Positions 22,589 through 36,786 of a stretch of DNA of 64,000 nucleotides are shown here, piece by piece. The DNA is taken from NCBI RefSeq assembly GCF_007995215.1, contig NZ_VCDK01000003.1:496001-560000 (forward strand), written 5' to 3'. The first letter of the stretch is position 1. Every line of letters begins with the position of its first letter. Position numbers and translations under genes: made by a program. The notes beneath the pieces were generated by a model that had not been told where the DNA came from, made no database searches, and saw nothing but the letters and a program-made list of their open reading frames with translations. This DNA comes from Shimia ponticola (GTDB taxonomy: Bacteria > Pseudomonadota > Alphaproteobacteria > Rhodobacterales > Rhodobacteraceae).

Positions 22589-23491
22589 ATGGACCTAGAT
22601 GCACTCAAAACCGTCCTAACGGTTTCGCAACGCGGCAGCTTTGCTGCGGCCGCCCGCCAATTGGACATGGACCCATCATCGGTCTCGCGTGCCGTTGCCG
22701 GGGTTGAGGATGATTTGGGCATACGGCTTTTTCACCGCTCAACACGTCGGCTGTCTTTGACCGAAGAAGGGCGCATCTATGTCCTGCGCCTCGCCCCCCT
22801 TGTGGAAGGGCTGGATGAAGCCGCCGAACAAGCCAAGGCACAGTCGGTGGAACCAGAGGGCGTTCTGCGCATCACCGCGTCGAATGCCTACGGCTACGAA
22901 CGCCTTGTCCCGCTGATTAAAGTGTTTCAGGACACCCATCCGAAACTGGTGCTTGATCTGATCCTCACGGATGATCCCGTCGACCTGATTGCAGAAGGCA
23001 TTGATGTCGCGATCCGTCTTGCCCCGTCTGTCAGCGGAGATCTGATCTGCGCGCGCCTTCACGGGACGCGGTACATGGTCTGTTCAGCGCCCGGCCAAGA
23101 GAGTGTAACAACGCCAGAAGATCTTCGATCGATGCCGTGTTTGCGCCAGAACCTGCCGGAGTTTCGAGACGCATGGCGGTTTCGCCAAGCCGGTGACGAG
23201 CTGACCGTTCCTGTGACTGGCCCAGTCTTGCTGTCTAGCCCATTGGCCTTGCGGCACGCGGCGCGACAGGGCTTGGGGCCTGCGCTGTTACCTGATTGGC
23301 TGGTGGCGAATGATTTGCGTCGTGGACGGCTGATGAACCTGTTCCCGGACTGGCAGGTTACAGCAACCACATTCGATACGGCTGCGTGGCTGCTCTATCC
23401 ATCCAGACGGCATTTGCCCGCACGGACACGCGCGGCGATCACAGTGTTACGACAGGCCCTCGGTCGGGGCGGCTTCCCGGCTCCCCACTGA
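22589..23491 (+). CDS. LysR-family transcriptional regulator
   Basis: 300 residues. The N-terminal winged HTH reads MDLDALKTVLTVSQRGSFAAAARQLDMDPSSVSRAVAGVE in family style, with a type 2 periplasmic-binding-like effector domain from about residue 90. It is divergent from the SDR gene with a 166-bp gap, the usual arrangement for a LysR regulator and its target. Its last 45 nt overlap the 3' end of convergent sitD. Confidence 0.9.
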   Translation: MDLDALKTVLTVSQRGSFAAAARQLDMDPSSVSRAVAGVEDDLGIRLFHRSTRRLSLTEEGRIYVLRLAPLVEGLDEAAEQAKAQSVEPEGVLRITASNAYGYERLVPLIKVFQDTHPKLVLDLILTDDPVDLIAEGIDVAIRLAPSVSGDLICARLHGTRYMVCSAPGQESVTTPEDLRSMPCLRQNLPEFRDAWRFRQAGDELTVPVTGPVLLSSPLALRHAARQGLGPALLPDWLVANDLRRGRLMNLFPDWQVTATTFDTAAWLLYPSRRHLPARTRAAITVLRQALGRGGFPAPH

Positions 23492-24319
23492 GGCAGAGGC
23501 ACGACGCGTCAGCACCTGACGGCGCACAAACGCCGCGATGAACATCGCTGTCAGGATCAAGATGATCGTCGGTGCAGGCGCGCTGTCGATCCAAAAACTC
23601 AGGTAAACACCTCCGCACATCGAAACCACGCAAACGGCAACCGCCACCCAGAGCATCGCGACAAATCGACGAACCAGCAAAAACGCAATCGCTCCCGGCG
23701 CGATCATCAGGCCGATAGCAAGGATCAGCCCCACAGCCGACAGTGTCGCGACAATCGTCAACGACAGCGCAGCCAAAAGCCCGTAATGCAGCCAATTCAC
23801 GCGCAGCCCGACCGCCCTTGCATGTGCCGGATCAAAACTGTGCAGCAAAATATCCTTCCAGAAAACGATCAGGCCGAGCGCGACGACAACCGAAATCGCG
23901 CCTGCGGTCCAGAGGTCCTGCGCGCCCACACCCAGCATGTTGCCAAAGAGGATGTGATCAAGATGGGCACTGGTGTCTATGCCAACATAAAGGACGATCC
24001 CCAAGGCAAACATGCCTGAGAAAACGACCCCCATAACGGTATCTGATTTGATCCGGCTGTTGGTCGACAGATATCCGGTCGCAACTGCGCAGGTCATTCC
24101 GGCCACAAAGGCCCCAAGCAACAGTGGTGCGCCGATGATATAGGCCAGCACGATCCCCGGCAGCACCGCATGGCTGACGGCATCACCCATTAGCGCCCAG
24201 CCTTTCGTCACCAGAAAACATGACAGGATCGCCGTCGGCACCGATACGATGATGGACACCAGAAAGGCGTTCTGCATGAACGGAAAAAGAAACGGCAGCA
24301 TCAGGGATGAGAGGTCCAT
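23447..24319 (-). CDS. sitD: Manganese/iron ABC transporter permease
   Basis: A 290-residue ABC-3 family permease with about eight membrane segments, beginning [23 protein letters not shown] and including the conserved GDAVSHAVLPGIVLAYI loop that contacts the ATPase. It is the last gene of sitABCD and overlaps sitC by 19 nt. Its C-terminal tail runs 45 nt into the convergent LysR gene. Two different ABC-3 permeases (sitC and sitD) are usual for this manganese/iron importer. Confidence 0.88.
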   Translation of the reverse strand: MDLSSLMLPFLFPFMQNAFLVSIIVSVPTAILSCFLVTKGWALMGDAVSHAVLPGIVLAYIIGAPLLLGAFVAGMTCAVATGYLSTNSRIKSDTVMGVVFSGMFALGIVLYVGIDTSAHLDHILFGNMLGVGAQDLWTAGAISVVVALGLIVFWKDILLHSFDPAHARAVGLRVNWLHYGLLAALSLTIVATLSAVGLILAIGLMIAPGAIAFLLVRRFVAMLWVAVAVCVVSMCGGVYLSFWIDSAPAPTIILILTAMFIAAFVRRQVLTRRASASVGSREAAPTEGLS

Positions 24320-25200
24320 GCCGCCTCCCCGACACGTGGTTTCGCAGAGCTATTCAGTGCCTCGCGCGCGCGGCGTTTGGCGGCCAGCATTCCGTGCTTT
24401 GGTGCCCAGACAAAGGCCGCCAGAAAAACCAGCGTTTGCAGCAGCACGATGATCCCGCCGGTCGCGCCATCAAGGAAGTAGCTAAAGTAAGCCCCAAGGA
24501 AGCTGGTCACCGCACCAATGGCGATAGATGTCAAAACAAGGCGCGGAAACCGGTCACACAGCAAATAGGCTGTTGCGCCCGGTGTAACGACCAGCGCGAT
24601 GACAAGAAACGCCCCCACGGTCTGCATGGCGGCCACAACGGATGCAGACAGCAGTACGAAAAACACAACCTTCAGTGCTTGAGGATGCAAGCCAATGGCC
24701 CGGGCGTGGTTTTCGTCAAAGAAGGTGACCATCAGGTCCTTCCACTTGAGCCCTAGCACCAACAGCGTCACCGCACCGATCAGAGCCAGCTGGACAGTAT
24801 CAGACGGCGTGATCGCCAGAATATTGCCCATCGTGATCGTCTGAACGCTAACCGACACCGGGCTGAGCGAGACGATGAACAGGCCAAGCCCGAAGAAAGA
24901 TGTAAAGATCAGACCGATGATCACATCAACCTTGAGGCCGGAGCGTTCCGACAGAAAAAGCATCGCTCCTGCCGCCAAACCACCCGAAATAAAGGCGCCC
25001 AGCGCAAAAGGAAGCCCGAGCATATAGGCCCCTGCAACGCCAGGAACGACGGAATGCGCCAGCGCGTCACCGATCAGGGACCAGCCCTTGAGCATCAGGT
25101 ACGCAGACAGAAACGCGCAGACCGCGCCCACCAACGCAGACACCCACATCGCGTTGAACATGTAATTGTATGTGAATGGCTCGATCAGCAATTCCATCAC
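24301..25200 (-). CDS. sitC: Manganese/iron ABC transporter permease
   Basis: 299 residues, ABC-3 family, with repeated hydrophobic segments and the [17 protein letters not shown] coupling loop matching the one in sitD. It forms the inner-membrane channel together with SitD. The start (MMELLIEPF) overlaps the sitB stop by 4 nt. The C-terminal 20 residues are charged and cytoplasmic. Confidence 0.88.
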
Positions 25201-26096
25201 GGGGTCTTCTCCCGCGTCTGGGTTTTTTCGCCGTATTGCACAAAGGGACGTTCATCATCTGACAGGATGGTGATTTCGCGCCCGTCTTCGTCGTCATGCA
25301 GGTCCGCGCCACCGAGGGTGAAACGCCGGAGCACGCCACCAAATGCGACCTTAAGGTTTTCATGGGTGAACACCGTCTCGGTCGGGCCGTGGGCAAGGAT
25401 CGTGCCTTTGACCAGGATCGTCCTGTCGCAAAACTCTGGCACCGACCCAAGGTTGTGGGTCGACACCAACATGACCCGGCCTTCATCGCGTAACTCACGC
25501 AGCAGGCGGACGATCTGTTCTTCGGTTTTCACATCAACGCCCGTGAATGGCTCATCCAGCAGGATGACCTGACCGTTTTGCGCCAGCGCGCGGGCGAGAA
25601 AGACGCGCTTGCGCTGACCACCGGACAACTCACCAATTTGACGGTGCCGAAAGTCCTGCATGTTCACACGTTCAAGCGCGTGATCTACGGCGTCACGATC
25701 GGCCTGCGATGGCCGCCGAAGCAGCCCCATATGCCCGTAGCGCCCCATCATCACAACATCTTCGACCAAAACCGGGAAGTCCCAGTCGACCTCTTCGTTC
25801 TGGGGGACGTAGGCGACAATATTGCGTTTCAGCGCTTCGCGAACCGTCAAGTCCATGATGCTGATCTGACCTGATGCGACTGGAACAAACCCCATCAACG
25901 CCTTGAAAAGCGTTGATTTCCCCGCACCATTCACCCCGACCAGAGCCGTCACAGTGCCTCGCGGGATCGCAAAACTGGCGTCGCGCAAAGCGGTGTGGCC
26001 GTTGCGATAGGTGACACTGACCCCGTCGACCGCCAAACCCGGCTGGTCGACCTGTTCATGTGGGAGTGCCTCCAAGGTTGCGGCTGGTGGTGTCAT
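25197..26096 (-). CDS. sitB: Manganese/iron ABC transporter ATP-binding protein
   Basis: 299 residues. Walker [11 protein letters not shown]-loop [14 protein letters not shown], signature LSGGQRKR and Walker [13 protein letters not shown] are all intact. The [10 protein letters not shown] segment is typical of Mn/Zn importer ATPases. The C-terminal extension of about 60 residues is acidic and may be a cytoplasmic regulatory tail. Between sitA and sitC, with 5 nt to sitA. Confidence 0.9.
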
Positions 26097-26101
26097 AGGC
26101 C

Positions 26102-27001
26102 CTAATTCATAGCGCTGGTTAATCCGTCGGCCACAGTCGTCGCGGTCACACGCAGTAGGTCAAGGTAGGTTGGCACCGGACCGTCAGCTTCGCTGAGCGA
26201 GTCCACATAAAGTACCCCGCCATAGGCTGCGCCTGTTTCGCGGGCGACCTGCTCGGCCGGGGCGGTGTTGACGGTGCTTTCGCAGAATACGACGGGTATG
26301 TTGTTGTCAGTGACACCGTCGATCACGGAACGCACTTGCTGAGGCGTGCCGACCTGATCGGCGTTCATCGGCCAGAGATAGAGTTCCTGCATGCCAAAAT
26401 CCCGAGCGAGGTAGCTGAACGCACCTTCGCATGTCACCAACCAGCGTTGGTCCGCCGGGATAGCGGCCACGGCCTCTCGCAGGGGTTCGATCGTGGCTCG
26501 CAATTCGTCACCATAGGCAGCGGCATTGGCGGCGTAGACCTCGGCGTTTTCAGGGTCCTGCTCGGCCATGGCGGCGGCCATGTTGTCAATGTAGATCAGC
26601 GCGTTATCCAGACCCATCCAAGCGTGGGGATTGGTCTTCCCTTCGTAAGAACCTGAACCAATGGCAATCGGCTCAATGCCTTCCGAGACCGTCACTGAGG
26701 GAATGTCGCCCAAATTGTTCAGGAACTGTTCGAACCACAGTTCAAGGTTCAGGCCATTCCACAGAATGAGGTCCGCATCGACCGCATTTACGATATCGCG
26801 CGGTGTCGGTTCATAGCCGTGAATTTCTGCGCCGGGTTTTGTGATCGAAACCACCTCGGCCGCGTCCCCGGCCACGTTCTGGGCCATGTCAGCCAGAACG
26901 GTAAAGGTCGTTACAACCTTCATCTTGTCATCGGCCATCGCCGGGATGGCAGTGGTCAGCGTCAGAAGGGTCGTCAGGGCAAGTGTCGAGCCTCGGGTCA
27001 T
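26102..27001 (-). CDS. sitA: Manganese/iron ABC transporter substrate-binding protein
   Basis: A 299-residue cluster A-I binding protein. The start at 27001 gives a Sec signal peptide ([13 protein letters not shown] to AMADD). Metal ligands are visible: His in GAEIHGYEP, His in NPHAWM, Glu in [13 protein letters not shown] and an acidic residue late ([11 protein letters not shown]). Binding-site make-up (His, His, Glu, Asp) fits manganese or ferrous iron rather than zinc. The operon promoter region carries Mur-like palindromes (27042-27087), which supports manganese control. Confidence 0.88.
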
Positions 27002-27041
27002 GTCAATCTCCGGCAACAGGTGTCCTAGTCTGATCTGTAAA

Positions 27042-27087
27042 TGCAAATCACTTGCAAGAAGTCAAGGAACTTGCGAATTATTCGCAA
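27042..27087. promoter_or_regulatory. Mur/Fur-type operator pair upstream of sitA
   Basis: TGCAAATCACTTGCAA (27042-27057) is an imperfect palindrome and TTGCGAATTATTCGCAA (27071-27087) a perfect 17-bp palindrome with a single central T. Their centres are about 30 bp apart. Both resemble the TGCAAAT-type sites of the alphaproteobacterial manganese regulator Mur and lie 41-86 bp upstream of the sitA start. Manganese-dependent repression is inferred. Confidence 0.7.
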
Positions 27088-27174: not shown

Positions 27175-28497
27175 TTAGGCCCCCGACTGAGACCCCAAAA
27201 CCTGCATGCGTGTGACTTTGGAGCCGCCTTTGACCGACACCTCAAGCGTGAACGGGCCTTTCGGCAATTCGCCAAGATCCACCCACCACGTATCAAGGGC
27301 CGTTTTCTCAAGGACGCGACGATTGCGTTTCAGAGAGAGCTTCGTTGTCTCACCATCAGGAAAGCGGAGCTTGAGGCTTACTTTCTCTGGCATGCCATCG
27401 ATCGCGCGGAGACCAAGAAGCGATGGCAAGTTGTCCATCTTTTGTTTGGCCTTGCCGCCATCAAGCGCGATGGTCGCGATGTCGCTCGTGCTCGAGTCAG
27501 AGATCAACGCGCCAAGCAGTTGGCGCAGCGTGGCCTCGTTCAGTTGATAGGTGTACGGAAATTCCCAAACGATCATGCTGGGCTGCTCGGCTGCATAGTC
27601 ACCGCTCAGCATATACTGCTCCAACGGGCCAAGCATCCCACCACCAGAGACCGATACGTTTTTGACCGGACGCCCCAGTGCCGCCGAAATCGCATCGGCA
27701 GACTGATATTGGTCGCGCTTGTAGCGATCCGAGAAACTGGTGCCGGCCAGGACGACCGCATTCTCGGTGTCCACGTCGTCCAACAATCCACCGACCGACG
27801 GTAGGAATGCCGTGTAGTCATAAACCGGAGCCTGTTCTTTTTGTGGGTCTACATCACAGGTTGCGCGGACAATGTCGGCAAGCGATCCACGCTCTTGAAA
27901 CGTCTCGACCACGGGCAGTTCATTGACATCAAATGCAGGTGAAGCGTTGGCGTCCAACGCTTCGGCCAAGGCCAAGGCGGAATGAGCAGCACCTGTGTTC
28001 GTCCAGTGCGTGTCACGCGAAAAATAGTACGAAGACCGGATATCGGCATCTGAAATCGCGCGCGCCTGAAGGTCTGGCATCACGACGCCGGCCGCGCGCA
28101 ATTGTTTAACCATTTCCGCAAATGAAGCAGACTGTGCGGAAACGTCAAAGGCATCTGCGCGCGTTTGATCAACAATATCCTGACCTGCAACAACAGGTCG
28201 TGGCGGTGCGATAAGCATAGCAAACGTGGTGCCGCGTGCGTCGAATTCCTGCACGATCCGAGCCATCAGCGATTGCTCGACAGAGGACAGTTCATAGCCG
28301 CCTTTGAATTGATCCGATCCGAAAATCCAGCCTGTATCGGCGTCGTTGTGGATCGGCGCGAGCCGTTTGTATTTCTTGTCGAGTTCCGCTTCTTGCAGCA
28401 TTTGCGCGCAGATTGGTGCGGAACCCGCTGAAGTCGCAAGAAGGGAGATGCCGGTGGCTACGGCAAAGGCGCGGATCGGTGAAAGGGAAGTTTTCAT
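27175..28497 (-). CDS. algX: AlgX-like polysaccharide O-acetylation protein
   Basis: 440 residues with an N-terminal signal peptide ending near SAGSAPICA. The SGNH-like acetyltransferase domain contains the DTHWTNTGA block with the catalytic Asp-x-His and GTSFSDRY with the nucleophilic Ser. A C-terminal region (about 340-440, beta-rich, ending VDLGELPKGPFTLEVSV) fits the carbohydrate-binding module of AlgX. In alginate producers AlgX transfers acetyl groups to the polymer in the periplasm. No alginate polymerase is nearby, so the polymer is unknown. Last gene of the operon before a clear terminator. Confidence 0.75.
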   Translation of the reverse strand: MKTSLSPIRAFAVATGISLLATSAGSAPICAQMLQEAELDKKYKRLAPIHNDADTGWIFGSDQFKGGYELSSVEQSLMARIVQEFDARGTTFAMLIAPPRPVVAGQDIVDQTRADAFDVSAQSASFAEMVKQLRAAGVVMPDLQARAISDADIRSSYYFSRDTHWTNTGAAHSALALAEALDANASPAFDVNELPVVETFQERGSLADIVRATCDVDPQKEQAPVYDYTAFLPSVGGLLDDVDTENAVVLAGTSFSDRYKRDQYQSADAISAALGRPVKNVSVSGGGMLGPLEQYMLSGDYAAEQPSMIVWEFPYTYQLNEATLRQLLGALISDSSTSDIATIALDGGKAKQKMDNLPSLLGLRAIDGMPEKVSLKLRFPDGETTKLSLKRNRRVLEKTALDTWWVDLGELPKGPFTLEVSVKGGSKVTRMQVLGSQSGA

Positions 28498-28527
28498 GGG
28501 AGGGACTCCTTGGTGGAATAGTTTGTG

Positions 28528-29541
28528 TCAGAGGTAACGTTCAGGGATTTCCCAAACGACGAATTGAGGGGCGAGATCTTGGATCGCGCCGGTTGTCAGG
28601 GCATCCGTCATAGGAGCGAAGGGTCCCTGCCCCTCGACAGACAGGTTGACGACATCAAGCCCGGTCGCGCGGCTGAGCGCGCCTGCGAAATCGAACTCGG
28701 TGCGCGCCGAAAAACTGGTGCCGACCAAGACGATGCCGACCTCGACATCACCAAACAGACCTGCGCTTGGCTGTGCGACGGTCGTGGTGGTCGAAAGGTT
28801 GATGGTTTCCTCGGCAATCCCGGCCCAGCGCGCAAAAGGCCCGGTTTCGACGAAAGGCATCAAATCTGCGCGGAACGGTTGGTCAGGTGTGATCGCTACT
28901 TCGAACTCAAGATTGCCAAGTCCGGCCAGTCCAGCATCCTGTGCAATGACTTGCGCGGCTTGATCCGCACCAAAGGGGCTCCAATGCGTGTCTGTCCGGA
29001 GGAACGTGTCTTCAGCGCCGCGCGCCTCGGTCAACGCGGAATTCAGATCAATCGCCGGGAAACCAAGTTCGCTAAGCGTATCGCGCGCCGTATCGAAGCG
29101 GGTCTCTAACTGCGCCCCACGTTCGCGCGGCAGCTTGTCTGCGTAGACGCGCGCCTTGTCGGGCACGATCACAGGGATCAGGGTGATACCTTGATTTGCC
29201 AGCGTCTCTTGCACCGTTTGCAGCGTTTCGGTCAGAGGAACGGCATTGGTCGCAGGACGAAATTCTTCGGCCGTGAATAGCCATTGATCATCGCCAATCA
29301 CAACGTCCGGCCCGGTCTGACCGAAAGCCGCAAGCGTCAGAGCGTTCATCGCGCCGCGGGCCACATCATTCAGTGGCAAAGTGTCGGCAAACCGGTCCTC
29401 ATACGCCCGCTGATAAGCGCCGCTGAGAACACTGAGGTCTGGGGCGGGACCTTCGGTTGTCGAAAGCCCGTAAAGAGCCGGTATCGCCAAAGCCGATGCA
29501 AAAACCCAAGGCAGTGCGGTGGAATAGATATCACGTTGCAT
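28528..29541 (-). CDS. algJ: AlgJ-like O-acetyltransferase
   Basis: 337 residues with an N-terminal membrane anchor (residues about 8-25) and an SGNH/AlgX-N-like domain. DTHWSPFGA supplies the Asp-x-His pair and GTSFSARTEFDF the Ser. The sequence is a diverged paralogue of the gene downstream, as AlgJ is to AlgX. It would take the acetyl group passed through the AlgI channel. Spacing is 30 nt to algX and 10 nt to algI. Confidence 0.78.
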   Translation of the reverse strand: MQRDIYSTALPWVFASALAIPALYGLSTTEGPAPDLSVLSGAYQRAYEDRFADTLPLNDVARGAMNALTLAAFGQTGPDVVIGDDQWLFTAEEFRPATNAVPLTETLQTVQETLANQGITLIPVIVPDKARVYADKLPRERGAQLETRFDTARDTLSELGFPAIDLNSALTEARGAEDTFLRTDTHWSPFGADQAAQVIAQDAGLAGLGNLEFEVAITPDQPFRADLMPFVETGPFARWAGIAEETINLSTTTTVAQPSAGLFGDVEVGIVLVGTSFSARTEFDFAGALSRATGLDVVNLSVEGQGPFAPMTDALTTGAIQDLAPQFVVWEIPERYL

Positions 29542-29551
29542 GGATCAGACC

Positions 29552-30943
29552 TCAGAATTGAAAGTAGAGAAACGGTGAATGCAGGCGGGCGCTGAGCACC
29601 ATCGTCGATGCCGTCATGAGCACAACGGTGGTGCCAAAGCGCAAAGCGGGCCATGAGATGTCGGTGCGCATGGCGCGGCCCATCGTGGCGATCACACCGC
29701 CAATGAAGAGCGCCCAAAGCTCAATCGACTGCGTGGCGTAGAGGTATTGGGACGACAGCCCAAGTTCGCCCAAGCCGAACATGCCGCGATACATCGTCAG
29801 CGCCACTTGCAACGTCTCGGCCCGGAACAAAACCCAGCCGATCATCACAGCGATCATCGTCGTCAACCAGGCAAACGGGCGTGGCAGCAGGGTCTGACCC
29901 ACACGCACGCCGGCCAAACGCTCGGCAGCCAAGAGCAAACCATGCCATGCGCCCCAGAGAACAAAGGTCACGTTCGCCCCGTGCCAAAGCCCGCCCAGAA
30001 CCATCGTCAGCATCAGGTTACGATAGGTCGCCAGCGCGCCGTGACGGTTCCCGCCCAGCGGAACATAGAGGTAATCGCGCAGCCATGCCGACAGGCTAAT
30101 ATGCCAGCGCCGCCAAAACTCGGTGATCGAAGTGCTGGTATAGGGCGCGTCGAAGTTTTCCATGAAGGTAAAGCCGATCATCAACCCAAGCCCGATTGCC
30201 ATGGACGAGTAGCCTGCGAAATCAAACAGCAGCTGGATCGAATAGGCTGCGACACCCAACCACGCCTCGGCCATGGAAGGATCCGAGAGGGCAAAGGCGC
30301 GATCAGCCAAGGGCGCCACGGTGTCCGCGATCAAAAGCTTCATCGCGAGACCTTCGACAAAGCGGCGCACGCCCATCGCGAATTTTTGCAGGCTGTGTGT
30401 GCGTTCAACGAATTGATCCGCGAGGTCCTTGTAACGAAGCACCGGACCGGCAATCAGCTGCGGAAAGAGCGATACGAAGGCAAGATAGTCGATCAGGGTG
30501 CGTGCAGGCGGCGCATCGCGGCGGGACACGTCAACGATATAGCTGATCGCCTGAAAGCTGAGGAACGAGATGCCAATCGGCAGAATGATCGCATCAAAGG
30601 CGTAGCCTGCCCCGCCAAGCGTCTCGCGCAGGTCACTGGCGATGCCCATGACGAAAACCGCATATTTGAAGTAACCCAGCGCCGCGAGGATCAGAGCAAC
30701 ACCGATGCGCACAGCCCATTTGCGGGTGGCTTCGTTCGCCGTAGTTGCGGCAACGTGCCCAGCGCCATAGCTCACGACCGAGATCGCAAAGACCAGCGCG
30801 AGGTAATCCACGCGCCACCACCCATAGAAAGCATAGCTCGCGAGCAGGATCAGGACCGAACGTGCCCGAACCGGGGCAAGGTAGTAGGTCGCCAGAAACA
30901 GCGGCAGAAAGCCGAAAAGGAAGATTTGCGAGGCGAAAATCAT
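29552..30943 (-). CDS. algI: MBOAT-family O-acyltransferase, AlgI-like
   Basis: A 463-residue integral membrane protein with about ten hydrophobic segments, starting MIFASQIFLFGFLPLFLATYY. The MBOAT signature is clear: WRRWHISLSAWLRDYLYVPLGG, then the active-site His in GLWHGANVTFVLWGAWHG. It moves acetyl groups from a cytoplasmic donor across the inner membrane for the AlgJ/AlgX partners. The start overlaps the algF-like stop in an ATGA. Confidence 0.88.
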   Translation of the reverse strand: MIFASQIFLFGFLPLFLATYYLAPVRARSVLILLASYAFYGWWRVDYLALVFAISVVSYGAGHVAATTANEATRKWAVRIGVALILAALGYFKYAVFVMGIASDLRETLGGAGYAFDAIILPIGISFLSFQAISYIVDVSRRDAPPARTLIDYLAFVSLFPQLIAGPVLRYKDLADQFVERTHSLQKFAMGVRRFVEGLAMKLLIADTVAPLADRAFALSDPSMAEAWLGVAAYSIQLLFDFAGYSSMAIGLGLMIGFTFMENFDAPYTSTSITEFWRRWHISLSAWLRDYLYVPLGGNRHGALATYRNLMLTMVLGGLWHGANVTFVLWGAWHGLLLAAERLAGVRVGQTLLPRPFAWLTTMIAVMIGWVLFRAETLQVALTMYRGMFGLGELGLSSQYLYATQSIELWALFIGGVIATMGRAMRTDISWPALRFGTTVVLMTASTMVLSARLHSPFLYFQF

Positions 30944-31545
30944 TGACCTGCCTCCGCAAAGACGGGGCCGTATGTGTCTTTGATCATTTCGACACTGCCG
31001 TCCGGCAGCACCACAAAGGACAGGTTTTGCCCACGGCGCAGCACGACATAAAAGGTCGTTGCATCCGAGCCATACGAGACCCCAAGCGTGACCGACAACG
31101 GATTCACCGCGCGCGTTGCTGCGGCACCCACAGCGACATCACCCAGGACTTCTGGACCGCCGTCCGCGACCGACAGAGCAGCAGGCAGTTCGGAACCCAA
31201 GTTTACCATCGACAGGTAGACTTTGCCCGGCTTGTCACGGGCTGGCTCTTCGACGACGCTCAGGACCTGTCCTGCGGCCTCAAAGACCGTGTAATGTGCG
31301 CCATCTTTGGCCTCTGGCAGCACGCCCGGCGCAAAGGCAACGTAGACATCCTCTGGCAACTCAGTTGTGGGTACTTTGCGCCCGAGGATCGTGAGGCTCT
31401 CAGAGCTTGCCCCAAGGACACGAACAAAGGCCGCCCCCTTGGGCACGACAGCGCCATACAGACCATCTTCCCGCTCGGCCAAAGCCGCCTGCGGAAGGCA
31501 GCTTGCCACTGCACACCAGACTACGATCAAGAAACGTTGCATCAT
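30940..31545 (-). CDS. algF: AlgF-like O-acetylation adaptor
   Basis: 201 residues with a Sec signal peptide ending near PQAALAE. The DGLYGAVVPKGAAFVRVLG opening and LSFVVLPDGSVEMIKD ending resemble AlgF, a periplasmic adaptor needed for alginate acetylation. The ATG at 31545 is chosen because AGGAG is 6 nt upstream. It is the first gene of algF-algI-algJ-algX and divergent from the metal-associated cluster at 31796. Two beta-rich domains are suggested by the alternating hydrophobic pattern. Confidence 0.72.
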   Translation of the reverse strand: MMQRFLIVVWCAVASCLPQAALAEREDGLYGAVVPKGAAFVRVLGASSESLTILGRKVPTTELPEDVYVAFAPGVLPEAKDGAHYTVFEAAGQVLSVVEEPARDKPGKVYLSMVNLGSELPAALSVADGGPEVLGDVAVGAAATRAVNPLSVTLGVSYGSDATTFYVVLRRGQNLSFVVLPDGSVEMIKDTYGPVFAEAGQ

Positions 31546-31795
31546 CACCAACTCCTGCGATTTCGGAGAGGTTTAGGTGAATGACCGCTGTCTGCGGGCG
31601 ACGCCGACGGATGATTTTTCTATCCTGAGGTATAGACGCCCAACCTTCTGTGCAGCGTCAGAGGGCAAGGAAAGCGGCTGTCAAGAAAACGTGACAGAAC
31701 AATGCCGATCACGCCCCAAACGGCCTTGAAGTTCCGGGCCAAGTGAAACAGGCTGCAGGTTCAACAGGAAGGTCTGGGTTGGGATTGGTTTGACT

Positions 31796-32377
31796 ATGGC
31801 GCGTGCTGGCCTTTTTGCGGCTGTCTTACTTGTCGGAATCGGCATCGTCGCTTGGGTTCTAATGACCCCGACCGGGGATCAGATATCAGAAACCGACGCC
31901 TTCAGCGCGCCGGGGTTGGAACCGATGACGCTTGATCAGGCGCAAAACGACTTTTTCCGGCTGACTCCCGCGCTGCTCTTGGTTGTTTATCAGGCTTTCA
32001 GCGAGGTTCAGGAAGATTCCATCTATGACACGCTGGCCAGCGTCACCCATGGTGATGCGCTGGAATACCTTTATCTGGAACGTGTCGGTGCCATGGCTGG
32101 TGGCGGGCTTGAGGAAGAAGCCGATCAAGAAATCCACGAGATCAACTTGCTTTATACAAGCGTCATGCGCGAAGACACCGCGCTGAACATCGACGCTTCT
32201 TGGCAGGTCATTGGTACGGTCGGTCATGCCGAACACCTGCACGTGCGCGGCAACACATATAGTGCGGCGTTGACCGTCTCACCAATTGACGGCGCTTGGC
32301 GCATCACGGATTTCAACCTGCTCGACGTTGATCGCGACAGTGCGGGCGAAACCTTTGAGGCACCAGCGACAAACTGA
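31796..32377 (+). CDS. Membrane-anchored NTF2-like hypothetical protein
   Basis: 193 residues, not recognised as a named family. One N-terminal hydrophobic segment (about residues 4-24) would anchor it with the rest in the periplasm. The body shows a long helical part (FFRLTPALLLVVYQAFSEV and onward, acidic) and a C-terminal beta portion ending GAWRITDFNLLDVD, the pattern of an NTF2/Tim44-like cone. The ATG at 31796 is preferred over a TTG two codons earlier. Its stop abuts the ATPase gene (shared A), so it is part of the ABC operon. Possible role: periplasmic partner of the permease; this is a guess. Confidence 0.7.
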   Translation: MARAGLFAAVLLVGIGIVAWVLMTPTGDQISETDAFSAPGLEPMTLDQAQNDFFRLTPALLLVVYQAFSEVQEDSIYDTLASVTHGDALEYLYLERVGAMAGGGLEEEADQEIHEINLLYTSVMREDTALNIDASWQVIGTVGHAEHLHVRGNTYSAALTVSPIDGAWRITDFNLLDVDRDSAGETFEAPATN

Positions 32378-33045
32378 TGATCACGGTTAAGGACCTCAAG
32401 TTTGGCTATGCGGGCGGCGGGTTTCGCCTGAGTGTGCCAGAGTTCAAACTGGACAGCCGCGAGCGCTTGGCGATTGTCGGACCAAGCGGCAGCGGGAAAA
32501 CCACACTCCTCAATTTGGTTGCGGGCATCCTCACGCCGAAAAGCGGAGATATTGACGTCGATGGGACCAAGGTGTCCGATCTTTCTGACGCCGAGCGTCG
32601 CCGGTTTCGCGCAACGCATATGGGGTTTGTCTTTCAGGACTTCGCTCTGCTGGATTATCTGCCTGCGCGGCAGAACATTCTTTATCCCTATCGGATCACC
32701 CCTGCCCTGAAACTCGACAGCGCGGCACGCGACCGGGCGCAAGCACTGGCCGATGCCTGCGGGATCGGGGACAAAATGGACCGCCACCCATCAGCACTCA
32801 GCCAAGGCGAACAACAACGCGTTGCTATCTGTCGCGCGCTGGTCACGCAGCCTAAACTCATCCTGTCGGACGAGGCCACCGGGAACCTTGATCCCGACAG
32901 CAAGGCGCGCATTCTCGATCTTTTGTTTGAACAGGCGGCTGAGGCTGGGGCAGCCGTGCTTGCCGTGACGCACGACCACGAATTGCTTCCACGGTTTGAA
33001 CGTGTGCTGGATTTCGCCCAGTTTCGCGAGGGGGCCGCCGCATGA
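32377..33045 (+). CDS. LolD/MacB-type ABC transporter ATP-binding protein
   Basis: 222 residues with Walker A GPSGSGKTT, Q-loop VFQDFALLDYLPA, signature LSQGEQQR, Walker B LILSDEATGNLD and an H-loop THDHEL. The DFALLDYL Q-loop and small size are those of ATPases that drive MacB/FtsX mechanotransmission proteins rather than importers. It is coupled upstream to the NTF2-like gene and downstream (4-nt overlap) to the FtsX-type permease, so the two form one ABC unit. Confidence 0.88.
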   Translation: MITVKDLKFGYAGGGFRLSVPEFKLDSRERLAIVGPSGSGKTTLLNLVAGILTPKSGDIDVDGTKVSDLSDAERRRFRATHMGFVFQDFALLDYLPARQNILYPYRITPALKLDSAARDRAQALADACGIGDKMDRHPSALSQGEQQRVAICRALVTQPKLILSDEATGNLDPDSKARILDLLFEQAAEAGAAVLAVTHDHELLPRFERVLDFAQFREGAAA

Positions 33046-34211
33046 ACGCGCTGTTTCTCGCCTTTGCTTACCTTCGCTACCACTGGGCACGCAGTTCCGT
33101 TCTTGTCGCGGTTGCGGCTCTGATCCTGTTTGTGCCTGCGGCGACCCAAATCCTGTTGTCCACAAGCGAACGCGCCTTGGTTGCACGCGGCGATGCGACG
33201 CCGCTCTTGCTGGGTAGCCGTGGATCGCAGCTCGATCTCACCATGTCAGCACTGTATTTCTCGGACGAGCGTCCGGACCCGGTGCCCATGGCCGAGGTCG
33301 AAACCGTTTGGGACAGCAATCTTGGTGTTCCAATACCGGTCCACACTGCGTTTTCGTCCAGCGGGTTCCGCATCGTGGGAACGACATTGGATTATTTCGA
33401 TTTCCGGGGCCTTTCGCCGGTCGATGGTCGCGGTTTGTCCATCCTTGGCGACGCGGTGATCGGCTCTGAAGTGGCCGAAAGCCTCGGCAAAGGCGTCGGC
33501 GACACCTTGGTTTCCGCACCAGAGAACCTCTTTGATCTGGACGGTGTATATCCGCTGGAGATGCCGATTGTCGGTGTTCTGCCGCAGACAAATACGCCAG
33601 ACGACAGCGCCATTTTTGTCGACATCAAGACCGCTTGGGTGATCCAGGGGATCGGCCACGGGCACGAAGACGTCGTGACCGCTGCCGAGGTCGCATCGGG
33701 AACGGCGGCCATCGCCAACGCGGCTGTCGTTCAGTACCAACGCATCACCCCCGACAATATCGACAGTTTCCACTTCCACGGTTCGCAGGATGGTTTTCCA
33801 GCGACGGCCGTGATTGTCGTCCCGAATGACACCCGCTCTGCCACGATCCTGAAAGGTCGCTATCTTGATAGCGAAGGCCCGACACAGCTGATAGAACCGG
33901 CTGGGGTCATTCAGGGGCTGGTGGATCGGATTTTTCGGATCAAATCGCTCTTGGACGCCGTGACCGCCATCATCGCAATCGCCGCCTTCGCAGCGATTGG
34001 GTTGGCGGTCTTTCTCAGCTACCGCCTGCGCGCCCGCGAGGTGGCAACTGCTGTAAAATTGGGCGCTCGGAAGGGCATGGTTCTGCGCCTCTTGGCAGCG
34101 GAAACCGTGACGCTATTGTCAATTTCAGCAGGTATCGCTGCCCTCGGCGCGATCATCGTGTCCCAGAATGCCGAGGCTTGGGTGGGATGGCTTCTCTCGC
34201 TCGGATCGTAA
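33042..34211 (+). CDS. FtsX/MacB-type ABC permease, short form
   Basis: 389 residues. One N-terminal membrane helix (about 14-36), a large periplasmic domain (about 40-300), then two clear helices (about 305-335 and 345-375) with the coupling sequence RAREVATAVKLGARKGMVLRLL between them. Classical MacB and FtsX permeases have four helices; the last one is not obvious here because the protein ends soon after WVGWLLSLGS. The periplasmic domain has no recognised motif. Such proteins do not carry substrate across the membrane but transmit force to periplasmic partners. Confidence 0.82.
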   Translation: MNALFLAFAYLRYHWARSSVLVAVAALILFVPAATQILLSTSERALVARGDATPLLLGSRGSQLDLTMSALYFSDERPDPVPMAEVETVWDSNLGVPIPVHTAFSSSGFRIVGTTLDYFDFRGLSPVDGRGLSILGDAVIGSEVAESLGKGVGDTLVSAPENLFDLDGVYPLEMPIVGVLPQTNTPDDSAIFVDIKTAWVIQGIGHGHEDVVTAAEVASGTAAIANAAVVQYQRITPDNIDSFHFHGSQDGFPATAVIVVPNDTRSATILKGRYLDSEGPTQLIEPAGVIQGLVDRIFRIKSLLDAVTAIIAIAAFAAIGLAVFLSYRLRAREVATAVKLGARKGMVLRLLAAETVTLLSISAGIAALGAIIVSQNAEAWVGWLLSLGS

Positions 34212-34226
34212 TCAACAGGAGGTTTT

Positions 34227-35003
34227 ATGAAACAATATCTTGTGACAGCATCGTTTGCTGCTCTCATGGCTGCGACACCTGCTCTGGCGCATTATGGCAT
34301 GATCATCCCAAATGATCCGATGATCAGCCAAGAAGACGGTCGCAGTGTCGACCTGACAATGTCTTTCTCGCATCCGTTCGAACTTGATGGGATGATGCTC
34401 GACAAACCTGCGGCCTTCTCTGTCACGCACGAAGGCAACACCACCGATCTCTTGGGCGGGTTGCAGGACGCCACCGTAATGGAGGATCAGGGCTACACGC
34501 TCGAATACCGGCTGGACCGCCCCGGCACCTATGTTTTTGCCATGGAGCCAAAGCCCTATTGGGAACCTGCCGAGGATGCCTTTATCATTCACTACACCAA
34601 GACCTACGTGACCGCCTATGGCGATGACGAAGGCTGGGATACCGAACTGGGTCTGAAGACAGAGGTTGTGCCTTTGACCAAACCCTTCGGTCTGTGGGAA
34701 CACAACGTGTTCCAAGGCATCATCAAAATGGACGGCGAACCAGTGCCTTATGCCGAGGTCGAAGTTGAGTATTACAACGAAGACCTGTCCGCGACCGTGC
34801 CTGATGAATTGATGATCACCCAAACGGTCAAGGCGGACGCCGACGGTGTCTTCACCTATGCGCCGCCATCGTCGGGCTGGTGGGGCTTTGCTGCTCTGAA
34901 CACAGCGGATTACACCATTTTGGAAGAAGGCTCTGGTGAAGAGAAAGCTGTCGAGCTTGGTGCTGTGATCTGGGTCCATTTCGAAGAATGGACGGGCAAT
35001 TGA
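34227..35003 (+). CDS. DUF4198-family periplasmic protein, predicted metal-binding
   Basis: 258 residues. A signal peptide MKQYLVTASFAALMAATPALA would be cut just before His22, so the mature protein starts HYGMIIP. The remainder resembles DUF4198 proteins (NikK-like) associated with nickel and cobalt uptake: an N-terminal jelly-like domain with FSHPFE, and a C-terminal Ig-like domain (GEPVPYAEVEVEYYN, FTYAPPSSGWWGFAAL). RBS AGGAGG precedes the start. It is 15 nt behind the permease gene and belongs to the metal-associated operon. An N-terminal His could be a metal ligand. Confidence 0.8.
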   Translation: MKQYLVTASFAALMAATPALAHYGMIIPNDPMISQEDGRSVDLTMSFSHPFELDGMMLDKPAAFSVTHEGNTTDLLGGLQDATVMEDQGYTLEYRLDRPGTYVFAMEPKPYWEPAEDAFIIHYTKTYVTAYGDDEGWDTELGLKTEVVPLTKPFGLWEHNVFQGIIKMDGEPVPYAEVEVEYYNEDLSATVPDELMITQTVKADADGVFTYAPPSSGWWGFAALNTADYTILEEGSGEEKAVELGAVIWVHFEEWTGN

Positions 35004-35335
35004 TCCGCGCAGCAGCCGTTGCCGCAACACTGGCCATCGCCCCAACCGGGACGATGGCGCATCAACTGGTCGTTTTTGCATCTGTTGATTGTCAGGTCGT
35101 GACCGTCGAAGCCAAGTTTTCGAATGGACGCGTCGCGCAGGCGGGTGACGTTCGTGTGCTTGACGGCGAAAACACGCTCCTAATGACGCTTGAACTGGGT
35201 GAGGATGGCACCGCTGTCGTGCCACTCGACAGCGTCGACCATAGCGGCGGTCTGGTGATCGAAGTCGATACCGGCGGACACGACAACTATTGGATCGTGA
35301 CGCCTGACGACATCACACGCAATTGCGGGAGTTAA
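34988..35335 (+). CDS. Small periplasmic protein with predicted mature N-terminal His
   Basis: 115 residues, overlapping the DUF4198 gene by 16 nt. A signal peptide is followed by a TMA cleavage site at residue 24, giving HQLVVFA as the mature N-terminus, like the DUF4198 neighbour. The rest is a single beta-sandwich-like domain (VEAKFSNGRVAQAGDVRVLDGENTLLMTL) resembling CbiL/NikL-type or carboxypeptidase-regulatory-like folds, with DTGGHDNYWIV and one C-terminal Cys. No named family is certain. It has no membrane helix, unlike NikL. Confidence 0.72.
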   Translation: MDGQLIRAAAVAATLAIAPTGTMAHQLVVFASVDCQVVTVEAKFSNGRVAQAGDVRVLDGENTLLMTLELGEDGTAVVPLDSVDHSGGLVIEVDTGGHDNYWIVTPDDITRNCGS

Positions 35336-35337
35336 AT

Positions 35338-36234
35338 TTGAAACGCTTTGCACTGGGAATGGCTGTCGCAGTTCTGGCGGCGACAACAGGATTGGCACAG
35401 GACCGTCCGCAAATCGCGACGGTGAACTATCCTTTGCAATACTTTGCAGAGCAGCTTGCCGGGGATGCCGCCGATGTTCTGTTCCCGGTCCCAGAGGACG
35501 TGGACCCGTCGTTCTGGCGGCCGACGATCAGCGATATCAGTACGATCCAAGGCGCTGACTTGATCCTTTTGAATGGCGCAGGGTTTGCCACCTGGATAGA
35601 TCGTGTGTCCCTGCCCCGGTCGCGTGTCGTGAACACGTCAGTGGCAATCGAAGATCAATTCATTGTCACCAAAAGCATCACCCACAGCCATGGCGACGGC
35701 GGCGAGCATTCGCACGAAGGGCTGGCGGCCTATACCTGGCTCGATCCTACGCTGGCCTCGGCTCAGGCCGAAGCGGTCGCAACGGCGATTGCTGGCAAAG
35801 GGCTGGTCCCGGTCGAGGATGTCGCCGAACGGTTGATTGCATTGCAAGCTGATCTGGCCGCGCTCGACGCGCGCACGGCAGAAGCACTTGCTGATGTAGG
35901 CGATGTGGCCATCATCGCGACGCACCCTCGCTATCAATACCTCGCGCGGCGCTATGATCTGAACATCACCTCTCTGGAATGGGAGGCTGGGGCGATGCCG
36001 AGCGATGCAGAGCTTGCAGAACTGGCCGACGAAGCGGCGCAAACCGGTGCAACAGTCCTGATCTGGGAAGACACGCCGCCAGATGCCGGATTTGACGCGG
36101 TCACCGATTTGGGTCTGCGTAACGTGGTATTCTCACCGCTCGCGACCGCAAACGGTGACGCCGATTTCATTGCATCCTTTGATGCCTACGTTACGGCGTT
36201 ATCAGATGCACTGCAGGCACAGCCGGGAAACTAA
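35338..36234 (+). CDS. ZnuA-like (cluster A-I) substrate-binding protein with degenerate metal site
   Basis: 298 residues. TTG at 35338 is chosen because GGGAG (35327-35331) is correctly spaced; the preceding in-frame TTG at 35323 has none. Signal peptide to about residue 20. The fold follows ZnuA, including a His-rich loop HSHGDGGEHSH (about 116-126). Of the canonical ligands only H196 (THPRYQYLARRY) is kept; the first His is Ser58 (VDPSFW) and the second is Tyr132 (AYTWLDP). It lacks an ABC-3 permease partner and sits behind the LolD/FtsX pair, so it may present metal to the DUF4198 partners rather than feed an importer. Confidence 0.85.
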   Translation: MKRFALGMAVAVLAATTGLAQDRPQIATVNYPLQYFAEQLAGDAADVLFPVPEDVDPSFWRPTISDISTIQGADLILLNGAGFATWIDRVSLPRSRVVNTSVAIEDQFIVTKSITHSHGDGGEHSHEGLAAYTWLDPTLASAQAEAVATAIAGKGLVPVEDVAERLIALQADLAALDARTAEALADVGDVAIIATHPRYQYLARRYDLNITSLEWEAGAMPSDAELAELADEAAQTGATVLIWEDTPPDAGFDAVTDLGLRNVVFSPLATANGDADFIASFDAYVTALSDALQAQPGN

Positions 36235-36240
36235 CGTGTG

Positions 36241-36786
36241 ATGCGTCATGAAATGCAGGTCGGTGACAACACCGACGCCATTGCGCAGGTGTTTCGAGAA
36301 AGCTTTGCTGCGTCCGAAGGACCGGAAGAAGGCGATAGGATCGCGAGCCTTGCCGCCCGCCTAATGGCAGAGACACCGGTGGAAGACTTACGCGTTGTCA
36401 CCGCTTGGGATGATCTGGGGCCATCGAAGGTCGTCGCAGCCATCCTCTTTACCCGGCTGCGATACCCCGACCCGCGTTGCGTCTTTCTTTTGTCGCCCGT
36501 GGCGGTTCTACCGGATTATCAGCGCAAAGGTGTCGGGCAGACCCTGATCACCGCTGGTTTGCAAACCTTGCAGTCAGAGGGCATCGACATCGCCGTGACC
36601 TATGGAGACCCGGCCTTCTATGCTCGGATCGGGTTTCAGCAGGTCACCATTGATCAGGTCCCTGCACCGTATGCGTTGGCCTTGCCGCACGGGTGGCAGG
36701 CGCAAAGCTTGCGCGGGGACGATCTAACCCCGCTCGCAGGTCCTGCTCAGGCCGTCGCCGCTTGGGCCGACCCCGAATTGTGGTAG
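36241..36786 (+). CDS. GNAT-family N-acetyltransferase
   Basis: 181 residues with the GNAT acetyl-CoA motif A, VAVLPDYQRKGVGQTLI, and the following VTYGDPAFYARIGFQQV block, as in YhbS-type acetyltransferases. A GTG immediately before the ATG at 36241 is an alternative start. It follows the ZnuA-like gene by 6 nt and may be co-transcribed. Its last 40 nt overlap convergent cysG. Confidence 0.85.
   Translation: MRHEMQVGDNTDAIAQVFRESFAASEGPEEGDRIASLAARLMAETPVEDLRVVTAWDDLGPSKVVAAILFTRLRYPDPRCVFLLSPVAVLPDYQRKGVGQTLITAGLQTLQSEGIDIAVTYGDPAFYARIGFQQVTIDQVPAPYALALPHGWQAQSLRGDDLTPLAGPAQAVAAWADPELW

Follow-up and report, generated by a model that had tools for sequence, protein, structure and literature searches.

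A conserved MacB-type ABC operon of Shimia ponticola with histidine-bearing partner proteins, possibly a motor for periplasmic metal transfer

We analyzed a 64,000-nucleotide stretch of the Shimia ponticola genome (the window; contig NZ_VCDK01000003.1) and describe an operon of six plus-strand open reading frames (ORFs) at window positions 31,790 to 36,234. It encodes an anchored NTF2-like protein, a LolD/MacB-type ATP-binding cassette (ABC) ATPase, a MacB/FtsX-type permease, a DUF4198 protein, a 115-residue NikL-like secreted protein, and a ZnuA-like periplasmic protein. The permease, the NTF2-like protein, and the ZnuA-like protein carry invariant histidines, and metal handling in the periplasm would be the simplest reading of these residues in the three core proteins. 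We tentatively favor the view, which we hold with some doubt, that the operon encodes a MacB-type ABC motor driving the hand-off of metal between periplasmic proteins. The ORFs overlap or are closely spaced. The NTF2-like and ATPase genes share 1 base, and the ATPase and permease genes share 4; the permease stop is followed after 15 bases by the DUF4198 start, and the DUF4198 gene overlaps the 115-residue gene by 16 bases. A preliminary description of the window had listed these six ORFs as a one-strand cluster with overlaps or short gaps, and the window ORFs and profile matches of the named families confirmed it.

A gene-order check proposed in the preliminary description found the neighborhood conserved beyond this genome. 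Permease matches at E values up to 1e-3 occurred in 47 of 149 genomes of the family. Those of 15 genomes stood apart, with at least 39% identity and E values below 1e-84 (the next best was 5e-15). A ZnuA-like profile (E values up to 1e-40) recovered exactly the same 15 genomes, and in all 15 the match lay on the contig and strand of the permease, no more than 2.1 kb away. The co-occurrence gives a Fisher p of ~7e-21, uncorrected for kinship, with carrier cut-offs for both proteins that we set ourselves. In a phylum sample, at least 5 of 398 genomes were carriers, all in the same family, when up to 4 candidates per genome were scored.

A scan of named genomes gave 91 relatives, 80 of which were kept as loci. 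The relatives belong to Pseudomonadota (reaching Gammaproteobacteria among the 80 loci), Thermodesulfobacteriota, Myxococcota, Acidobacteriota, Gemmatimonadota, and Planctomycetota. The closest named relatives of the window operon are rhodobacteral, and carriers include Ruegeria, Roseobacter, and Loktanella strains. Locus L092, of rhodobacteral type, is labeled Granulosicoccus, a label that may reflect transfer or mis-binning. On the basis of similarity, we classed 51 of the 80 loci as rhodobacteral-type and 29 as distant; gene counts per locus come from a non-iterated search, and residue counts refer to rows within fixed length ranges. The ATPase gene was found in 78 of the 80 loci, the ZnuA-like gene in 70, and the NTF2-like gene in 63. 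The DUF4198 gene was present in 48 and the 115-residue gene in 47 of the 51 rhodobacteral-type loci, and neither was found in any of the 29 distant loci. All of the proposed six-gene unit is present in the window, but its core is four genes, the DUF4198 and 115-residue genes being confined to rhodobacteral-type loci. The flanking genes otherwise mostly vary; an enoyl-ACP-reductase-like gene, recognized by eye, recurs in 11 loci.

The permease (33042 to 34211, plus strand) has a large periplasmic domain and matched MacB_PCD with 36.4 bits (cut-off, 27). Its two HxH pairs, H206/H208 (33657 to 33665) and H244/H246 (33771 to 33779), are histidine in 67 of 67 rows. The predicted structure (pLDDT, 84.8) matched MacB, LolCDE, HrtBA, and the Streptococcus structure 5xu1, which agrees with the earlier assignment of the ABC pair to the MacB/FtsX type. 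Three transmembrane (TM) helices were predicted. The FtsX match was partial and subthreshold, covering positions 3 to 71 of 120, while that of a zrg permease covered 2 to 119. From E354 to the C terminus, the tail measured 32 to 36 residues in 66 rows, the window protein included, and 76 to 80 residues in 14 permeases of Zrg-type and related systems. This short tail, together with the FtsX match ending at 71, indicates that the fourth TM helix (TM4) is missing from the permease family as sampled. Replacement of TM4 by the helix of the NTF2-like protein is disfavored, since permeases without a detected NTF2-like gene (e.g., in L130) also lack TM4. The ATPase (32377 to 33045, plus strand) matched PF00005 at 2.4e-32; its best NCBIfam match was LolD, at 173.6 bits, below the cut-off of 307.75.

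The ZnuA-like protein (35323 to 36234, plus strand; the start is probably TTG at 35338 rather than 35323, with GGGAG read by eye at 35327 to 35331) matched PF01297 (ZnuA) with 130.6 bits (cut-off, 29). Its loop HSHGDGGEHSH (35683 to 35715) holds H121, H123, H129, and H131 (HxHG...HxH), which are histidine in 64 of 64 rows, with spacing and number fixed. When aligned to solved ZnuA-type proteins, the first canonical ligand His is replaced by Ser, Ala, or Met in all 64 rows, and the second is His in 3 rows and lost in 61; the third His and the Glu are kept in 63. The family assignment made earlier therefore stands, but two of the four canonical ligands are lost in nearly all members. Because these two are lost and the loop histidines are invariant, the alignments suggest that the ZnuA-fold metal site was rebuilt around the fixed loop. 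In six loci (L107, L108, L111, L112, L113, and L120), the ZnuA-like proteins are apparent lipoproteins by eye, with a Cys after the signal peptide, unlike most proteobacterial ZnuA-like proteins.

No Pfam or NCBIfam match was found for the NTF2-like protein (31790 to 32377, plus strand, with an ATG at 31796). Its residues H146 (32225 to 32227), H149 (32234 to 32236), and H151 (32240 to 32242), forming HxxHxH, are histidine in 64 of 64 rows (55 of 55 when nonredundant). At most rhodobacteral-type loci, this first protein is an anchor plus the NTF2-like domain only, and the DUF4198 and NikL-like genes are added. At the distant loci that have it, it is ~570 to 640 residues long (one is cut by a contig end), and its NTF2-like domain follows a periplasmic N-terminal section and two predicted TM helices. 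Among the 15 family genomes, G007 (locus L047) has the long version and lacks the DUF4198 and NikL-like genes. Of 15 candidate long-type ORFs, we kept 13 and dropped those of L035 and L058 (>450 residues), which match the short form but fail to match the profile of the long N-terminal part; a long form on the opposite strand in L129 was left out of the count. The modeled C-terminal domain of the long protein from L104 has an NTF2-like fold and aligned with an ARC6 domain (VIA Z, 12.8; root mean square deviation [RMSD], 3.3; 129 residues aligned). For the modeled N-terminal domain, the top Foldseek match was 9gce, a copper-bound structure of the Cu/Ni-binding Ang-1 domain from a HupE/UreJ-2 protein (E, 6.5e-5; VIA Z, 8.7; RMSD, 4.4; 127 residues aligned). 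A profile search of this domain against the genome's own Ang-like protein was not significant (E, 0.82), and the long proteins read by eye have no His at the apparent mature start. The Ang-1 likeness of the model is thus a hint only, given that the sequence comparison does not support kinship and that no N-terminal His was seen. No weighty sequence similarity of the long first protein to PDB chains was found. In L044 (8569 to 9651), an NTF2-like domain appears by eye to be fused to a multi-TM N-terminal part, directly after a HupE/UreJ-2 gene.

The DUF4198 protein (34227 to 35003, plus strand) matched PF10670 with 191.7 bits (cut-off, 34). Its H22 (34290 to 34292), at the predicted mature start and mostly preceded by AxA, is conserved in 46 of 46 rows, and H49 and H122 are conserved in 14 of 14 nonredundant rows. 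The 115-residue protein (34988 to 35335, plus strand) matched the NikL family NF058648 at 1.2e-13 and 51.4 bits, below the cut-off of 100; H25 (35060 to 35062) at its predicted mature start is conserved in 39 of 39 rows and H98 in 25 of 25 nonredundant rows. Searches against PDB chains gave no weighty sequence similarity for the DUF4198 protein and, for the 115-residue protein, a best E of 0.0007, reached over repeat proteins in which no individual stretch was significant. An Ideonella DUF4198 protein binds Ni, Zn, and Co via its N-terminal His and His18, with a Kd of 18 nM for Ni and less stabilization by Zn and Co (PMC12537917). Our DUF4198 protein shares with it PF10670 and the predicted mature N-terminal His, cleavage being predicted. 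A further DUF4198 gene lies just downstream of the operon in L101 (by PF10670) and in L046 (by clustering). Elsewhere in the L143 genome (5427 to 7470), divergent DUF4198 and HupE/UreJ-2 genes each have, by eye, a predicted N-terminal His.

The kind of system, a MacB-type ABC unit with periplasmic metal proteins, is known, and the variant in this operon appears to be undescribed: no published description of this gene set was found by title or abstract in the literature searched. The preliminary description had drawn a partial comparison with the Vibrio zrg locus. That comparison is apt insofar as Zrg and PA4063-PA4066 share a LolD-type ATPase and a separate MacB-type permease with periplasmic metal proteins, but the operon permeases form a separate clade. 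In a permease tree containing 13 of 15 paralogues and the zrg permease (L019 and L033, with apparently misframed ORFs, were omitted), they branched separately (support, 100/100) from the permeases of Zrg-type and related systems; their branch is long, and the tree program cautioned that long branches may be joined falsely. ZrgB is a four-TM, MacB-like protein (PMC9820375), and the Photobacterium zrg permease matches FtsX over nearly its full length, whereas the operon permease lacks TM4 and matches FtsX in part. The two HxH pairs are absent at these positions in the 14 usable Zrg-type and related permeases, of which several have one His there and that of L032 has a long, His-rich insert including HxH stretches. 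ZrgA (PF10986), which contributes to zinc acquisition (PMC9817125), is not among the six proteins and has 0 matches in the S. ponticola genome; DUF3299, encoded at the Photobacterium zrg locus, is likewise not found among the six. The Photobacterium alginatilyticum genome carries both zrg and the operon system (L112), and identity to the window proteins is 22% for its zrg permease and 35% for its zrg ATPase. On the best reading, then, the operon system is distinct from Zrg and PA4063-PA4066. A third group of MacB-type permeases (L020, L026, and L031) carries a His motif in a comparable position, with TM4 present; the small secreted proteins adjoining those in L026 and L031 gave no Pfam match.

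Other known systems share single parts with the operon. MacB, LolCDE, and HrtBA (type VII ABC systems) have the same predicted permease fold; the operon permease differs from them in its three predicted TM helices, its periplasmic His pairs, and its ZnuA-like neighbor. The ZnuA-like protein shares with ZnuA and AztC (cluster A-I) the fold family, the third His and Glu, and a His-rich loop; it differs in the missing first and, nearly always, second His and in the fixed loop histidines. Unlike ZnuABC, the operon has no ABC-3 permease, its permease matching MacB_PCD and FtsX only. As in NikKMLQO, where NikK is a DUF4198-type protein, the DUF4198 gene adjoins one for a NikL-like protein, and an N-terminal His is predicted for both products; however, NikM/CbiM (PF01891) has 0 matches in the genome, and the operon partners are a MacB-type ABC unit and a ZnuA-like protein. 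In NosDFYL copper delivery, an ABC unit serves periplasmic metal loading, not transport; it is of the ABC-2 type and built of different parts. Brucella carries nikKMLQO (PMC2868824), and orphan NikK/NikL proteins without NikMQO are known and unexplained (PMC2667541). The znuGHI genes of the Caulobacter Zur regulon were dropped as relatives; they carry an ABC-2 annotation, and DUF4198 is encoded in that organism by a separate, down-regulated gene (PMC4176598).

We scanned for Zur boxes with a pattern built after known sites (PMC5387054). Positive controls worked: the pattern was found at the genome's own znuA/zur and at the Photobacterium zrg locus. In contrast, no match was found anywhere in the window on either strand, and only 1 of 77 named loci (L071) had one upstream. 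L112 has two matches, neither upstream: one lies inside the permease gene and one just past the ZnuA-like gene. Zur regulation of the operon is thus unsupported by the pattern scan of the window and the 77 named loci. Palindromes with 6-base arms and k-mers, compared with shuffles, revealed no shared upstream operator clearly above background. A CTGTCA-N8-TGACAG repeat at 31678 to 31697 was rejected as a shared operator, other loci not sharing it. Since neither a Zur box nor a shared operator was found upstream, the operon, judged from its sequence, probably lies outside the zinc-starvation regulon, unlike Zrg.

We propose that a type VII (MacB-like) ABC motor acts here on periplasmic metal ions. 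The permease and its LolD-type ATPase would work as a dimeric mechanotransmitter, in keeping with the mode of action ascribed to the type VII class (PMC11481552). Two partners would dock on the periplasmic domain of the permease, which has the two HxH pairs: the ZnuA-like protein, bearing the HxHG...HxH loop, and the tethered NTF2-like domain, bearing HxxHxH. ATP hydrolysis would shift the spacing of the His sites so that metal is pulled off one carrier and given to another, and the metal would not need to cross the membrane during transfer. In the rhodobacteral version, the DUF4198 and NikL-like proteins, with their N-terminal histidines, might be loading or receiving partners. The scheme builds on the gene order, co-occurrence, and invariant residues that we observed and on predicted folds; from these, we infer metal binding by the invariant residues, assembly into one complex, and ATP-driven transfer. 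A narrower version, which would make the system an undescribed class of ATP-driven transfer motor, is possible but more doubtful: the three-helix permease would itself bind metal via its HxH pairs and strip or load the ZnuA-derived carrier, whose four-His loop would have taken the place of the canonical site, and cytoplasmic ATP would set the periplasmic holder of a metal that never crosses the membrane.

Several observations weigh against an ABC-driven hand-off. The ZnuA-like gene was not found within 5 kb in L078, L127, L128, and L130 (of the 10 loci without it, 6 end no more than 2.2 kb downstream). The NTF2-like gene was missed in 16 of 29 distant loci with the window query on one strand and still in 14 of 29, 15 being found, with distant queries on both strands (4 of the 14 have less than 2 kb of upstream sequence). 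Since each gene is absent from some loci, neither is strictly required. In the permease model, pLDDT falls below 50 at 208 to 213 and 222 to 230, beside the first HxH pair. The lack of a Zur box in the window and of a shared operator counts on the same side. Finally, the nearest functional data, for PA4064/4065, describe a MacB-type exporter linked to pyochelin and Co (PMC11481552).

One rival reading is an exporter, in which the MacB-type pair would push metal, a metal complex, or a metallophore outward from the periplasm or cytoplasm and the ZnuA-like protein would act as a collector. Such a role has been proposed for PA4063-PA4066, and pyochelin and Co build up in PA4065 mutants of a znuA zrmB strain (PMC11481552). 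The MacB/HrtB-type permease fold is also as expected for an exporter. However, the operon permease lacks TM4, and no MacA/TolC-like gene was noticed by eye among recurrent flanking ORFs, no family search of flanks or genome having been made; we regard export as unlikely. A Zrg-like importer, whose periplasmic proteins would gather scarce metal for the ABC pair to pass into the cytoplasm or on to another importer, would account for the ZnuA-family partner. It is also rather unlikely, considering that the canonical ZnuA ligands are altered, that the operon has no Zur box while znuA/zur and the Photobacterium zrg locus match the same pattern, and that MacB-type units are not known as importers.

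The unit could instead be a metallochaperone for one secreted metalloenzyme, such as a metallo-β-lactamase (MBL)-fold hydrolase, or belong to a nickel route that the DUF4198 and NikL-like proteins supply. A GntH-type secreted MBL gene (GntH being used here as a family name only) lies near 6 of the 13 long-type loci (L112, L103, L104, L100, L125, and L047), all six proteins scanned, one per locus, being above the NF041257 cut-off, and these secreted MBL-fold proteins are possible client enzymes. At short-type loci, no evident recurrent client was noticed by eye, the enoyl-ACP-reductase-like gene being the sole non-core flanking gene seen to recur. For the nickel route, urease (at our own cut of E <1e-20) was present in 15 of 15 carriers versus 103 of 134 other genomes (one-sided p, 0.025, uncorrected), but this association is weak, and urease is a cytoplasmic enzyme. 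We therefore consider this explanation improbable. The preliminary description had named an unrelated lipoprotein transporter as the outcome that would overturn its view; a transporter of lipoproteins or peptides that merely sits beside metal genes would explain why LolD is the best NCBIfam match of the ATPase. That match falls far short of the LolD equivalog cut-off, there is one permease only, it occurs in the same 15 genomes as the ZnuA-like protein, and the permease itself has invariant histidines, all of which make this by far the least credible explanation.

Zinc is our tentative choice for the metal handled, based on the ZnuA ancestry and on the GntH-type MBL genes near long-type loci. 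Nickel or cobalt is a slightly less likely candidate, suggested by the DUF4198 and NikL-like partners and the urease association; with these NikK- and NikL-like partners, it is nearly on a par with zinc. Copper is doubtful: the Ang-1-like fold, a HupE/UreJ-2 gene in L044, and the extra DUF4198 genes in L101 and L046 would point to copper or nickel. This L044 HupE/UreJ-2 gene, for whose product an N-terminal His is predicted, immediately precedes the operon. A general tracking of the operon by HupE/UreJ-2 genes was rejected (10 of 15 carriers versus 83 of 134 others).

The transfer of metal in the periplasm is commonly regarded as a downhill process governed by affinity alone. If the hand-off reading is correct, several phyla possess an ABC motor dedicated to periplasmic metal transfer, in which ATP moves metal between secreted proteins. 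It would aid in understanding the puzzling Zrg and PA4063-PA4066 operons and would give a function to a branch of ZnuA, to DUF4198/NikL-like orphans, and to an NTF2-like protein without a Pfam or NCBIfam model. The invariant histidines make the proposal directly testable.

The window contains further genes around the operon. A GNAT acetyltransferase gene (36238 to 36786) starts 3 bases past the ZnuA-like stop and is possibly cotranscribed with the operon; a tblastn search of the loci found a relative in one only, Photobacterium L112 (3527 to 4030; 47% identical), near the operon. Alginate-type O-acetylation genes (MBOAT, two ALGX, and AlgF; 27175 to 31551, minus strand) end just upstream of the operon. 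Beyond them lies a SitABCD-type importer (23447 to 27046, minus strand) with two ABC-3 permeases, an ATPase, and a ZnuA-family binding protein; the latter has, by eye, HGYEPT and NPHAW motifs and a Glu at the third ligand position. The genome thus has three ZnuA-family genes: the operon ZnuA-like gene, the zur-linked znuA, and this SitA-type gene (26102 to 27046).

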